Shown here: positions 3,969-62,428 of the stretch, piece after piece
Position numbering within the stretch: position 1 is the stretch's first letter
Layout: each line of letters opens with the position of its first letter
Assembly: GCF_009649955.1 (NCBI RefSeq)
Contig: NZ_CP045875.1
Span: forward strand, 681,059 to 745,058
Source of the DNA: Heliorestis convoluta
GTDB lineage: Bacteria > Bacillota > Desulfitobacteriia > Heliobacteriales > Heliobacteriaceae
Direction: 5' to 3'
DNA length: 64,000 nt
Made by a program: the position numbers and the translations under genes
Notes under the pieces: generated by a model
Told to the model about the DNA's origin: nothing
Database searches by the model: none
Seen by the model: only the letters and a program-made list of their open reading frames with translations

Positions 3969-4032
3969 AATAATAAGGTTTTTTTAAGATAATTCTAAAT
4001 AAATATTTCTTAAGCGTTTAAGGTGATAAATC

Positions 4033-59820: not shown

Positions 59821-60741
59821 TTAATACCTCATTAATACAACAGGTTTTGTTGTATCGTCTATGATTTGGAAAGTGTAGCCTTCCTGAATAAGTCCTTCTA
59901 TGATAGCAGGCAATGCCTGGGGCAATGTTACTTTACCAGGTCCGTCATGAAAAAGAACGATAATAGAGTCTTTGTTCTTTGCTTGTTCTAACACTTGCTT
60001 CTCTATATAGGCAGCGGATACAAGGGGCGCCGATGTATCTCGCGCATCGATGTTCCAATCGTGAATAATATACCCACTTTCTAACAATCTTTTTACCAAT
60101 GCTGGTGAAAAATTGCCTTGTGTACCACCGGGTGCACGGATGATACTTGGCCTTTGTTGTACGATTTTGTCAAGTAAATTTTCAGCTTTTTGTAAATCCT
60201 GCATAAAGGCCTCTACACTACTGTATATCTGCCTATATTGATGAGAATAAGTATGATTTCCCAAAGCATGACCTTCTGCAACGATTCTTTTTGTTGTTTC
60301 GACATGATTTTCAACTTGCCTACCAATCACAAAAAAGGTAGCAGGGATTTGATAATGTTTTAGAATATCAAGAACACGAGGCGTTATATCACTGGGGCCG
60401 TCATCAAAAGTTAGATAAGCGATTTTTTGACTCTGCTTACCTACGATTGTCTCTATTTCTTCTTGTTTACTTTTTAGTTCTTGCGATTCTTCCTTTCTTT
60501 GTTCTACAATATTCGCGTGATTGTTATCAAGTTCTTCTATGACTTTAGGGACTGTCGCTTCTTCTTGGTAAATGGAAGATGTTTTTAGAGTTTCCAGGGT
60601 TGCACTATTTTCTCGAGCTGCTGCATCGTGATAGATAAAATAGGCAGAATAGACAGAGAGGCCATAAAAAAATAGAATTAGCAATGCCATTAAACAGAAT
60701 GTTTTTAGCAGTACTTTCCAGGAGTATCTATTTTGCATCAA
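59821..60741 (-). CDS. Membrane-anchored polysaccharide deacetylase
   Basis: 306 residues. N-terminal membrane helix (14-35), a charged linker, and a NodB domain: KIAYLTFDDGPSD (catalytic Asp and metal Asp), GNHTYSHQYR (metal His pair), RAPGGTQG, DWNIDARD and IIVLFHDGPG. It probably deacetylates peptidoglycan or another surface glycan outside the membrane. Start TTG at 60741 or the ATG next to it, behind AAGGGGG. Nothing else is recognised in 60742-60940. Confidence 0.92.
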   Translation of the reverse strand: MMQNRYSWKVLLKTFCLMALLILFFYGLSVYSAYFIYHDAAARENSATLETLKTSSIYQEEATVPKVIEELDNNHANIVEQRKEESQELKSKQEEIETIVGKQSQKIAYLTFDDGPSDITPRVLDILKHYQIPATFFVIGRQVENHVETTKRIVAEGHALGNHTYSHQYRQIYSSVEAFMQDLQKAENLLDKIVQQRPSIIRAPGGTQGNFSPALVKRLLESGYIIHDWNIDARDTSAPLVSAAYIEKQVLEQAKNKDSIIVLFHDGPGKVTLPQALPAIIEGLIQEGYTFQIIDDTTKPVVLMRY

Positions 60742-60943: not shown

Positions 60944-60972
60944 TTGACCAATGAATAAAAATCTTGTACAAT
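60944..60972 (+). promoter_or_regulatory. Near-consensus sigma-A promoter of the tRNA-like operon
   Basis: TTGACC (60944-60949), 17-nt spacer, TACAAT (60967-60972). The expected start is within one or two bases of the first tRNA-like structure at 60980. Confidence 0.75.
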
Positions 60973-60979
60973 TCTTCAA

Positions 60980-61053
60980 GCGGATGTTGCTCACAGGGAG
61001 CATCGGTTCTTAGCTAATAACCACTGTGGGTTCAACCCCCGCCATCCGCACCA
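60980..61053 (+). tRNA. Atypical tRNA-like RNA 1, with encoded CCA
   Basis: 74 nt. Acceptor stem GCGGATG/CATCCGC (7 bp) ends ACCA. D-stem GCTC/GAGC closes a 5-nt loop ACAGG. T-arm GTGGG-TTCAACC-CCCGC is canonical. The anticodon region is not: the best stem GGTT/AACC encloses a palindrome (CTTAGCTAAT), and no frame gives U33 with a purine 37 in a 7-nt loop without a mismatched stem. An alternative arm ATCGG-TTCTTAG-CTAAT would read CTT (Lys) with one C-A mismatch and no base 26. It may be an unusual tRNA, a non-decoding tRNA or a decaying gene. Confidence 0.6.
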
Positions 61054-61087
61054 AAATTGGCCCTCCCTTCCTTAGAGGGCGCTGGTG

Positions 61088-61163
61088 GTAGGTGAAGAAA
61101 TGGTACGAGTTCAGGAAAGTGGCACCTGTACTCAAAAAGGTTCGAATCCTCTTTCACCTACTA
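61088..61163 (+). ncRNA. tRNA-like RNA 2, no CCA
   Basis: GTAGGTGAA (61088-61096) pairs with TTCACCTAC (61153-61161), a 9-bp acceptor-like stem. A T-arm-like AAAGG-TTCGAAT-CCTCT has one mismatch. The middle hairpin is GAGTTCAGG (61107-61115) with CCTGTACTC (61125-61133), 9 bp with one T-T mismatch and a 9-nt loop, unlike a tRNA anticodon arm. No proper D-arm is seen and CCA is not encoded. It is probably co-transcribed with RNA 1. Confidence 0.5.
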
Positions 61164-61170
61164 CGAAGAT

Positions 61171-61206
61171 AACCCCGCTAGGCCTAGAGCTTAGCGGGGT
61201 TCTTTC
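61171..61206 (+). terminator. Terminator of the tRNA-like operon
   Basis: AACCCCGCTA (61171-61180) and TAGCGGGGTT (61192-61201) pair perfectly, followed by CTTTCGTTT. Confidence 0.85.
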
Positions 61207-61242
61207 GTTTATATAAGTTTTTTCTTGATTCTGGATCCTTTT

Positions 61243-62004
61243 TCATTTTTGCTGCGATAATAGATAGTTAATGGCACGATTGATGAGAGTGACACCTTCT
61301 TCTCTTGTGAGAGCTCGCTGTGGATTAAAGTTTCCTTTGTCGTCGCCTTGAACAATACCACGGTCTAGAGCCTCTTGTATCTCTTTTGCAGACCAGCGGT
61401 CCATTGGCACGTCAGGAAAAGGTCCCTTAGACATGATCTCACTCTCCTTTGGTAAAGAAAGTCCAAAGTGGGTTGCAACCGCTTCAGCAATCGCTTGTGC
61501 TGCTTTTTGCTGAAAGCTTTTTTCGCGTAAAAGCTTTTCTTCCTCGGGGTTGGTGATAAAGCCAAGCTCTACAAGAACAGCAGGCATCTTAGTATGCCTG
61601 ATAACGTAAAAAGAAGCTGTCTTTACACCTCTATCCAGGAGACCCAAAGCTTGCACAAGATTTTTCTGAATCAATTGTGCAAGCTTCTCTCCATTACCAC
61701 CTCTCATGTAACAATATGTCTCTATTCCTCTTGCTGCTACAGCCGTTGCTGCATTACAGTGAATGCTTATAAAAACAGAAGCATCATATGCATTGGCAAT
61801 TCGAACCCGTTCCTGTAAGTCTCGATTGACATCTGAGCCTAGAGCAACATCACGCTCTCTTGTCAAACGACAACTTACTATTGGTTCTAATAATGCAAAA
61901 AGAGCTTTAGAAACTGATAAGGCCACATCAGATTCTCGCAAACCAGTAGGACCAATAGCACCGGGATCGCGTCCACCGTGTCCAGGATCAATCATAACCT
62001 TCAA
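61243..62004 (-). CDS. N-acetylmuramoyl-L-alanine amidase with C-terminal SLH-like repeat
   Basis: About 253 residues. Amidase_3 zinc enzyme: VMIDPGHGGRDPGA (His), GLRESDVALSVSKAL (Glu), FISIHCNAA (His) and VELGFITNPEEEKLL (catalytic Glu). It cleaves the muramyl-peptide bond. The last 55 residues (FPDVPMDRWSAKEIQEALDRGIVQGDDKGNFNP ... REEG) are one SLH-type repeat for cell-wall binding. No signal peptide is visible, which is unusual for a wall enzyme. I chose TTG 62002-62004 because GAGGTGAT is well spaced for it; ATG 62010 is the alternative. Confidence 0.9.
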   Translation of the reverse strand: MKVMIDPGHGGRDPGAIGPTGLRESDVALSVSKALFALLEPIVSCRLTRERDVALGSDVNRDLQERVRIANAYDASVFISIHCNAATAVAARGIETYCYMRGGNGEKLAQLIQKNLVQALGLLDRGVKTASFYVIRHTKMPAVLVELGFITNPEEEKLLREKSFQQKAAQAIAEAVATHFGLSLPKESEIMSKGPFPDVPMDRWSAKEIQEALDRGIVQGDDKGNFNPQRALTREEGVTLINRAINYLLSQQK

Positions 62005-62032
62005 AACCATCACCTCAAAGACATAGTATTCA

Positions 62033-62428
62033 CTATGCAAGGTGTTTGACTAATATTGCTTGAAGGTCTTCTGTACGAATTGGCTTGATCAAACAATCGT
62101 CCATACCGAGTTCAATACATTTACGACTTTGCTCTAGGTCATGTCCGGATATGGCGATAATTGGTGTGTATCTGCCTAAGCCTGCTTCATAAGCACGAAT
62201 TTCTTTTGTTGCATCAAATCCATCAAGGATTGGCATTTCACAGTCCATAAAGATGATAGAAAAACGATTTATTTTAGCCTTTTGAAGAGCCTCATAACCA
62301 TTCACAACGACAGTAAGATTGAAGTAGCCAAGTTTGTTGAGCTGCCTTTGGAAGAACAGTTGTTGCACTGGGCTATCTTCTGCGATTAAGATTGACTCTT
62401 CTTTTTGATCATACCATCTATCCATCAT
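62033..62428 (-). CDS. Stand-alone CheY-like response regulator
   Basis: 131 residues, one receiver domain: ILIAEDSPVQ (acidic pair), IIFMDCEMPILDG (phospho-acceptor Asp), IIAISG (Thr/Ser switch) and CLIKPI (Lys). No output domain. The pattern is like receivers of hybrid kinases or phosphorelays. It overlaps the longest reading of the amidase gene. No strong ribosome site. Confidence 0.9.
   Translation of the reverse strand: MMDRWYDQKEESILIAEDSPVQQLFFQRQLNKLGYFNLTVVVNGYEALQKAKINRFSIIFMDCEMPILDGFDATKEIRAYEAGLGRYTPIIAISGHDLEQSRKCIELGMDDCLIKPIRTEDLQAILVKHLA

Follow-up and report, generated by a model that had tools for sequence, protein, structure and literature searches.

Staphylococci possess a non-proteinogenic tRNA-Gly(UCC) that keeps its anticodon arm, is charged by GlyRS and serves as the donor for the peptidoglycan bridge, and the allo-tRNAs are novel cloverleaves of the 8/4 and 9/3 types. 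The rise of new functions after gene duplication is familiar from proteins, whereas well-supported cases among bacterial tRNA genes are few. The tRNAOther of Bacillus cereus is derived from a tRNA, lies outside translation, alters gene expression and may sit in a larger RNA; pseudo-tRNAs in peptidoglycan synthesis are mentioned in general terms in the same work (PMC3399842).

Here we describe a unit of two tRNA-like RNAs, RNA1 and RNA2, in a 64,000-nucleotide stretch of the Heliorestis convoluta genome, the whole of which is called the window below. H. convoluta is a photosynthetic bacterium from soda lakes, and the genome of H. convoluta HH forms one contig of 3,218,981 bases. For this genome 105 tRNAs have been reported (PMC7143216). 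In this unit two former tRNA genes seem to have acquired a new role, and selection has kept them across several related genera. The presence of likely parents, a conserved remodelled shape and a close relative without the unit makes the fate of a non-decoding tRNA directly testable. A text search on tRNA-like RNAs and heliobacteria found no paper.

Architecture of the two-RNA unit

The ordered RNA1-RNA2 pair occurs, with its structure, in three further genomes, one of the same genus (G001) and two of two other genera (G002 and G007), as recovered by BLAST and by R1, a structure-aware model built from the four RNA2 sequences, which it describes by construction. The carriers, H. convoluta included, are four Heliobacteriaceae genomes from three genera. 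The features of the unit and the genes on either side of it are collected in Table 1.

Table 1. Features of the two-RNA unit and its flanking genes, in window coordinates
Feature	Position	Strand	Basis or remark
Polysaccharide deacetylase gene (presumed from sequence reading)	59821-60741	-	divergent from unit
Two-RNA unit	60944-61211	+	promoter, RNA1, linker hairpin, RNA2, intrinsic terminator; stands alone
Sigma-70-type promoter, TTGACC-17-TACAAT	60944-60972	+	consensus matches 10/12
RNA1, tRNA-like cloverleaf with encoded CCA	60980-61053	+	ARAGORN, Rfam, fold, orthologues
RNA1 D-arm, 4-bp stem, 5-nt loop ACAGG	60989-61001	+	fold
RNA1 variable stretch replacing anticodon arm and variable loop	61002-61025	+	alignment, folds
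RNA1 T-arm, GTGGG TTCAACC CCCGC	61026-61042	+	5-bp stem in fold; stem paired in 4/4
Linker hairpin, GCCCTC...GAGGGC	61060-61080	+	between RNA1 and RNA2; no U-run on + strand
RNA2, D-stem-less tRNA-like three-way junction, no CCA	61084-61165	+	model R1 97.1 bits, pair counts, fold
RNA2 outer stem, 5' strand	61085-61096	+	12 bp with 61153-61164; fold
RNA2 middle anticodon-like hairpin	61107-61133	+	alignment, fold
RNA2 T-arm, 3-bp stem, TTCGAAT loop	61138-61150	+	GG-TTCGAAT-CC invariant in 4/4
RNA2 outer stem, 3' strand	61153-61164	+	fold
Intrinsic terminator	61171-61211	+	13 pairs (61171-61201), 8 G-C, then T-rich tail
N-acetylmuramoyl-L-alanine amidase-like gene (presumed from sequence reading)	61243-62040	-	convergent with unit

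Seven nucleotides separate the end of the -10 element from the start of RNA1. The promoter reads TTGACC-17-TACAAT in G001 as well and TTGACC-17-TACACT in G007, and none is recognizable in the sequence ahead of RNA1 in G002. A hairpin with a T-run also lies 3' of RNA2 in G001, G002 and G007, giving a terminator in all four carriers. Both the promoter and the strong terminator had been named in a preliminary description of this DNA and are borne out. The whole unit of 237 nt folds better than each of 200 shuffled sequences (z = -4.5), and it is predicted to be transcribed. The linker hairpin had gone unmentioned in that description. Hairpins comparable to it are visible in G001 and G007 and not in G002; in the window this hairpin is followed by a T-rich stretch on the - strand, for which it was flagged as terminator-like.

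The acceptor stem of RNA1 consists of seven perfectly paired positions, its D-stem (GCTC/GAGC) is found in all four orthologues, and a cloverleaf fold was obtained for each of them. The variable stretch, 24 nt long in the window and 17-24 nt among the orthologues, forms no standard anticodon loop; its loops range from about 3 to 10 nt among the species and are not conserved in sequence. The fold agrees with the earlier account of RNA1 in its acceptor stem, CCA, five-nucleotide D-loop, T-arm and lack of a standard anticodon loop. Two of the four RNA1 orthologues (the window and G002) have an encoded CCA, the 3' end reading ACCCCA in G001 (L217) and GCCT in G007 (L216); every tRNA found in the H. 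convoluta genome ends in CCA.

RNA2 matched no Rfam family, which adds to the interest of the pair. Its outer stem, at first described as having 9 bp, has 12 bp in the window and in G001, 14 bp in G007 and about 8-9 bp in G002, with three additional pairs beyond a 2-nt bulge in the last of these; among the orthologues 5 of its 11 modelled pairs have changed on both sides. The middle hairpin is present as had been claimed, with eight pairs and one T.T mismatch instead of the 9 bp assigned to it, and its 9-nt loop carries the motif GUGGC (61119-61123), which is invariant in all four genomes. The TTCGAAT T-loop and the absence of CCA had been described correctly, and CCA is encoded after RNA2 in none of the four genomes. 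A GG-containing D-region is retained although the D-stem is lost, and the position equivalent to U33 is occupied by A, A, T and C in the four orthologues. In the RNA2 alignment 88% of the cells are paired and double changes occur at 6 pairs; the covariation value of 0.357, as against 0.198 in shuffles, was reached in none of 500 shuffles, and values of 0.06-0.18 were obtained when the model was slid along the alignment. Coming from four sequences, this covariation is strong but not final. An RNAalifold consensus in which the middle hairpin is paired with the T-arm was set aside in favor of the per-sequence folds and the covarying stems.

Standard tRNA models do not fit both RNAs well. Against the Rfam tRNA model (RF00005) RNA1 scores 29.0 bits, which is exactly the gathering score and the lowest value among the 103 tRNA matches of the genome, the other 102 scoring 50.1-75.4 bits; at 28.0 bits the orthologues of RNA1 in G001 and G007 fall below this threshold, and that of G002 gives no match at E up to 0.5. 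The preliminary description had allowed that the two might be unusual yet decoding tRNAs. ARAGORN indeed labels RNA1 as tRNA-Lys(ctt) and RNA2 keeps GUG; however, the program calls neither RNA in G001, G002 or G007, and RNA2 offers no free CCA end. As the anticodon arm of RNA1 varies between species in both length and sequence and U33 of RNA2 is not conserved, decoding by either is highly improbable. Neither RNA scores as clearly in Rfam as a canonical elongator tRNA, and neither has a 7-nt anticodon loop with both U33 and a conserved anticodon. Of the outcomes named in that description as refuting it, neither a lack of conservation in close relatives nor a good fit of a standard model to both RNAs was obtained. 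The conserved structure and the poor fit to tRNA models support its core idea, that the RNAs derive from tRNAs and serve a purpose other than decoding, and we are confident in attributing a non-decoding role to the pair.

Selection, inheritance and loss

A common gene neighborhood, as read from the ORFs, surrounds the pair in the carriers, running YgiQ-HDAC-CBS protein-GNAT-RsbU-like-polysaccharide deacetylase, then the pair, then recD2; the pair has therefore been inherited vertically. PcrB-like and GntR genes have been added beside it in G002 and, to the extent that a 10.9-kb contig covers the region, in G007. An origin as the scar of a genomic island, as for tRNAOther, was rejected on account of these conserved housekeeping neighbors. 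A phage or plasmid origin was likewise rejected, there being no phage match and a single, unrelated plasmid match of 43 nt. A pattern search of viral contigs gave 22 matches, which reached at most 34.5 bits under the RNA2 model and the best of which were ordinary tRNA-His genes, and 118 stretches matching a degenerate RNA1 pattern, which were spread over unrelated phyla among genome contigs, were judged to be due to chance.

Orthologues are 67-77% identical in RNA1 and 68-86% in RNA2. At four-fold degenerate codon sites in recD2 and in the HDAC gene, identity is 42-47% for the window against G001 and 20-35%, near saturation, across genera. Purifying selection acts on the RNA pair. Decaying, functionless copies of tRNA genes might be expected to look like RNA1 in its degenerate anticodon region, and to be missing, as the unit is, at the locus in G006 and G008 and undetected in G003 and G004. 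Yet the identity of the RNAs stands well above that of four-fold sites across three genera and their stems covary, and decay without function is therefore not credible; the promoter kept in three of the four genomes and the terminator kept after RNA2 in all of them speak in the same direction. We give this explanation very little chance.

In G006, a close relative of G002, exactly the two-RNA unit is missing between well-conserved flanks. Comparison of L215:9251-9402 with L227 (G006:C62:58500-59100) shows a clean presence/absence, with the terminator hairpin remaining in G006. The unit is also missing from the same locus of G008, between the PcrB-like and GntR genes, and G003 and G004 gave tRNA-level matches only, the exact locus being out of view at contig ends or in an incomplete genome. 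The expected locus of G005 consists of N for about 5.1 kb (L228, G005:C1:2338500-2346500, from locus base 4001, into L234). Conserved in order, neighborhood and structure in four genomes, the two RNAs are lost together, as in G006. As most genomes of the family lack the unit or show no sign of it, it is dispensable. A wider search, with an exact pattern in 83 genomes of the class and with R1 in these and 398 genomes of the phylum, returned the four carriers only, two of which fell within the sample of 398; absence outside the Heliobacteriaceae is thus a statement that rests on the narrow model R1 and this sample of genomes.

Relationship to tRNA-Gly and tRNA-His genes

Next after its orthologues, the RNA1 model (R2) ranks the tRNA-Gly(tcc) genes of G005, H. 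convoluta and G001 (54.3, 47.4 and 47.4 bits), followed by tRNA-Gly(gcc) with up to 43 bits. Gly(tcc) is also the best class in pairwise means over the four orthologues, with 63.6 vs 53.8 for the next class. A glycine origin of RNA1, with tRNA-Gly(UCC) as its nearest relative, appears highly probable from these comparisons. The second rank of R1 is made up entirely of tRNA-His(gtg), with 30-38 bits in most genomes of the family, tRNAs other than His reaching at most 23.5 bits; the R1 match list for G002 and G006 has no tRNA-His entry. Plain pairwise alignment of RNA2 does not decide between Ser(gga) (48.9) and His (46.6), and because Ser(gga) comes out at or above His the histidine leg is the weaker of the two. 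RNA2 nevertheless probably stems from tRNA-His, as suggested by the structure-aware model, the GUGGC loop and gene order. Regarding the last, Gly(tcc) is followed by a directly adjoining His(gtg) in three tRNA clusters (H. convoluta L204, G005 L162 and G001 L165), which is the order of RNA1 and RNA2. From similarity and order taken together, a duplicated Gly-His tRNA gene pair would be the simplest and most likely source of the unit.

The identity elements of these tRNAs in bacteria are U73, G1-C72, C2-G71, G3-C70, C35 and C36 for glycine and G-1, C73, G34, U35 and G36 for histidine (PMC9976931). The three acceptor pairs of the glycine set are kept in RNA1 in all four orthologues; position 73 is A, A, A and G across them, so that U73 is gone, and C35 and C36 are gone too, leaving the set recognized by GlyRS incomplete. 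With respect to HisRS, RNA2 has GUG in all four orthologues and no G-1:C73 end, because its stem runs on past that point.

These elements bear on one of the examples given in the preliminary description, aminoacyl donors for the modification of cell wall, lipid or peptide. In such a reading RNA1 would supply aminoacyl groups for non-ribosomal work, as the staphylococcal tRNA-Gly does, and RNA2 would be an accessory. Descent from tRNA-Gly(UCC), the retained acceptor pairs together with the D- and T-arms, the CCA encoded in the window and G002, and the deacetylase and amidase genes that adjoin the unit in the window would all be in keeping with it. Against it, G001 and G007 do not encode CCA after the discriminator of RNA1, although all tRNAs found in H. 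convoluta end in CCA, and the wall-gene neighbors are not common to the carriers, GntR and PcrB-like genes flanking the pair in G002 and G007. The donor version is weakened because CCA is encoded in half of the orthologues and U73 is lost, and we regard it as quite unlikely.

Possible roles and comparison with known systems

The observations can be accommodated by an account in which an ancestor of the Heliobacteriaceae duplicated a gene pair for tRNA-Gly(UCC) and tRNA-His(GUG). The duplicate, having landed between recD2 and the polysaccharide deacetylase gene, would later have been reshaped into an RNA gene that stands alone and whose non-decoding products mimic tRNAs. RNA1 would have retained the outer shape of a tRNA (acceptor stem, D-arm and T-arm) without the anticodon arm and U73; RNA2 would have retained the elbow, in the form of the T-loop and GG D-region, together with the anticodon-like GUGGC loop, and lost the D-stem, its charging end being buried within a stem of 9-14 bp. 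Without being normal substrates, the RNA or RNAs could then bind one or more proteins or RNAs that recognize the elbow of tRNAs, acceptor stems of the glycine type or the GUG loop, and in this way serve as regulator or decoy in functions linked to tRNAs. As a whole we consider this account to have slightly less than an even chance of being correct, and the decoy or regulatory action, which is the leading mechanism and was among the examples in the preliminary description, is put forward tentatively.

Judging from the elements kept and lost, RNA1 resembles an acceptor-side mimic and RNA2 an anticodon-plus-elbow mimic. It is conceivable, if rather doubtful, that they form a two-part regulator with complementary identity halves, the glycine acceptor side being supplied by RNA1 and the histidine anticodon and elbow by RNA2. 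If so, the two RNAs would jointly bind and modulate enzymes that recognize tRNAs (synthetases, RNase P and modification enzymes, for instance) and would represent a regulatory RNA class so far undescribed. A partnership with an extra HisRS paralogue in carriers was considered and rejected: every genome of the family, carrier and non-carrier alike, has two HisRS-type genes.

A different role for the GUG-bearing loop would follow if the unit were one structured small RNA acting by base-pairing, with the tRNA-like domains as scaffold and the exposed GUGGC loop as seed. The invariance of GUGGC in the 9-nt loop of a conserved hairpin fits such a role, and tRNAOther reportedly forms part of larger RNAs for which mRNA targets have been predicted (PMC3399842), but a mere scaffold would need neither the T-loop nor the acceptor of RNA1. 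This reading is unlikely. Still less can be said for RNA2 as a T-box ligand, in which GUG would bind a CAC specifier and, with no free NCCA, leave histidine genes repressed. RNA2 does retain the anticodon triplet and elbow with its acceptor end hidden, and a T-box carrying a Trp specifier is a target of tRNAOther (PMC3399842). However, none of the 35 T-boxes read with their downstream genes in three of the four carriers (12 of H. convoluta, 11 of G002 and 12 of G007, a few weak matches excepted) precedes HisRS or a his operon, and such a ligand is correspondingly most improbable. The genes after the 35 belong to leucine, valine, phenylalanine, isoleucine, glycine, cysteine, branched-chain, aromatic, serine-type and other functions. 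In H. convoluta itself there are 13 T-box matches, of which the 12 that were read (L266-L277) include none before histidine genes; they precede the LeuRS, ValRS, PheRS, IleRS, GlyRS, CysRS, ilvB, ilvE and DAHP synthase genes, among others.

Several described RNAs share individual features with the pair. The bacterial Y RNAs (YrlA) are, like it, non-coding RNAs with a tRNA-mimicking module; the Y RNA reading was rejected, as a TROVE/Ro60 gene was present in none of 13 genomes searched, the control genome of Deinobacterium being positive, and no Rfam Y RNA model matched. The tRNA-like domain of tmRNA resembles RNA1 in having an acceptor and T-arm without an anticodon arm, whereas the tag reading frame and pseudoknots of tmRNA are absent from the pair; a tmRNA match of 18 nt in G002 scores 12 bits vs a cut-off of 47 and is at chance level. 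Allo-tRNAs recall RNA2 by combining a long acceptor stem with a 3-bp T-stem, but the stem of RNA2 reaches 12-14 bp in three orthologues and there is neither a D-stem nor a CCA end. With the staphylococcal tRNA-Gly(UCC), RNA1 shares its likely ancestry and an altered D-loop; unlike it, RNA1 has lost the anticodon arm and U73 and has CCA encoded in half of its orthologues.

The nearest known case is tRNAOther. Both it and the pair appear to be tRNA-derived, non-essential genes of a small group of Firmicutes, with a role outside translation and possibly within a larger regulatory RNA, and the pair likewise joins conservation to unfitness for decoding. Unlike the pair, tRNAOther consists of one RNA, bears a Trp anticodon and lies next to a genomic island, and its known sequences, from the B. 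cereus group, are almost identical to one another. The pair here comprises two strongly remodelled RNAs of probable glycine and histidine ancestry, lies in a housekeeping neighborhood and spans three genera; it is thus double, more remodelled and phylogenetically deeper than its nearest known counterpart.
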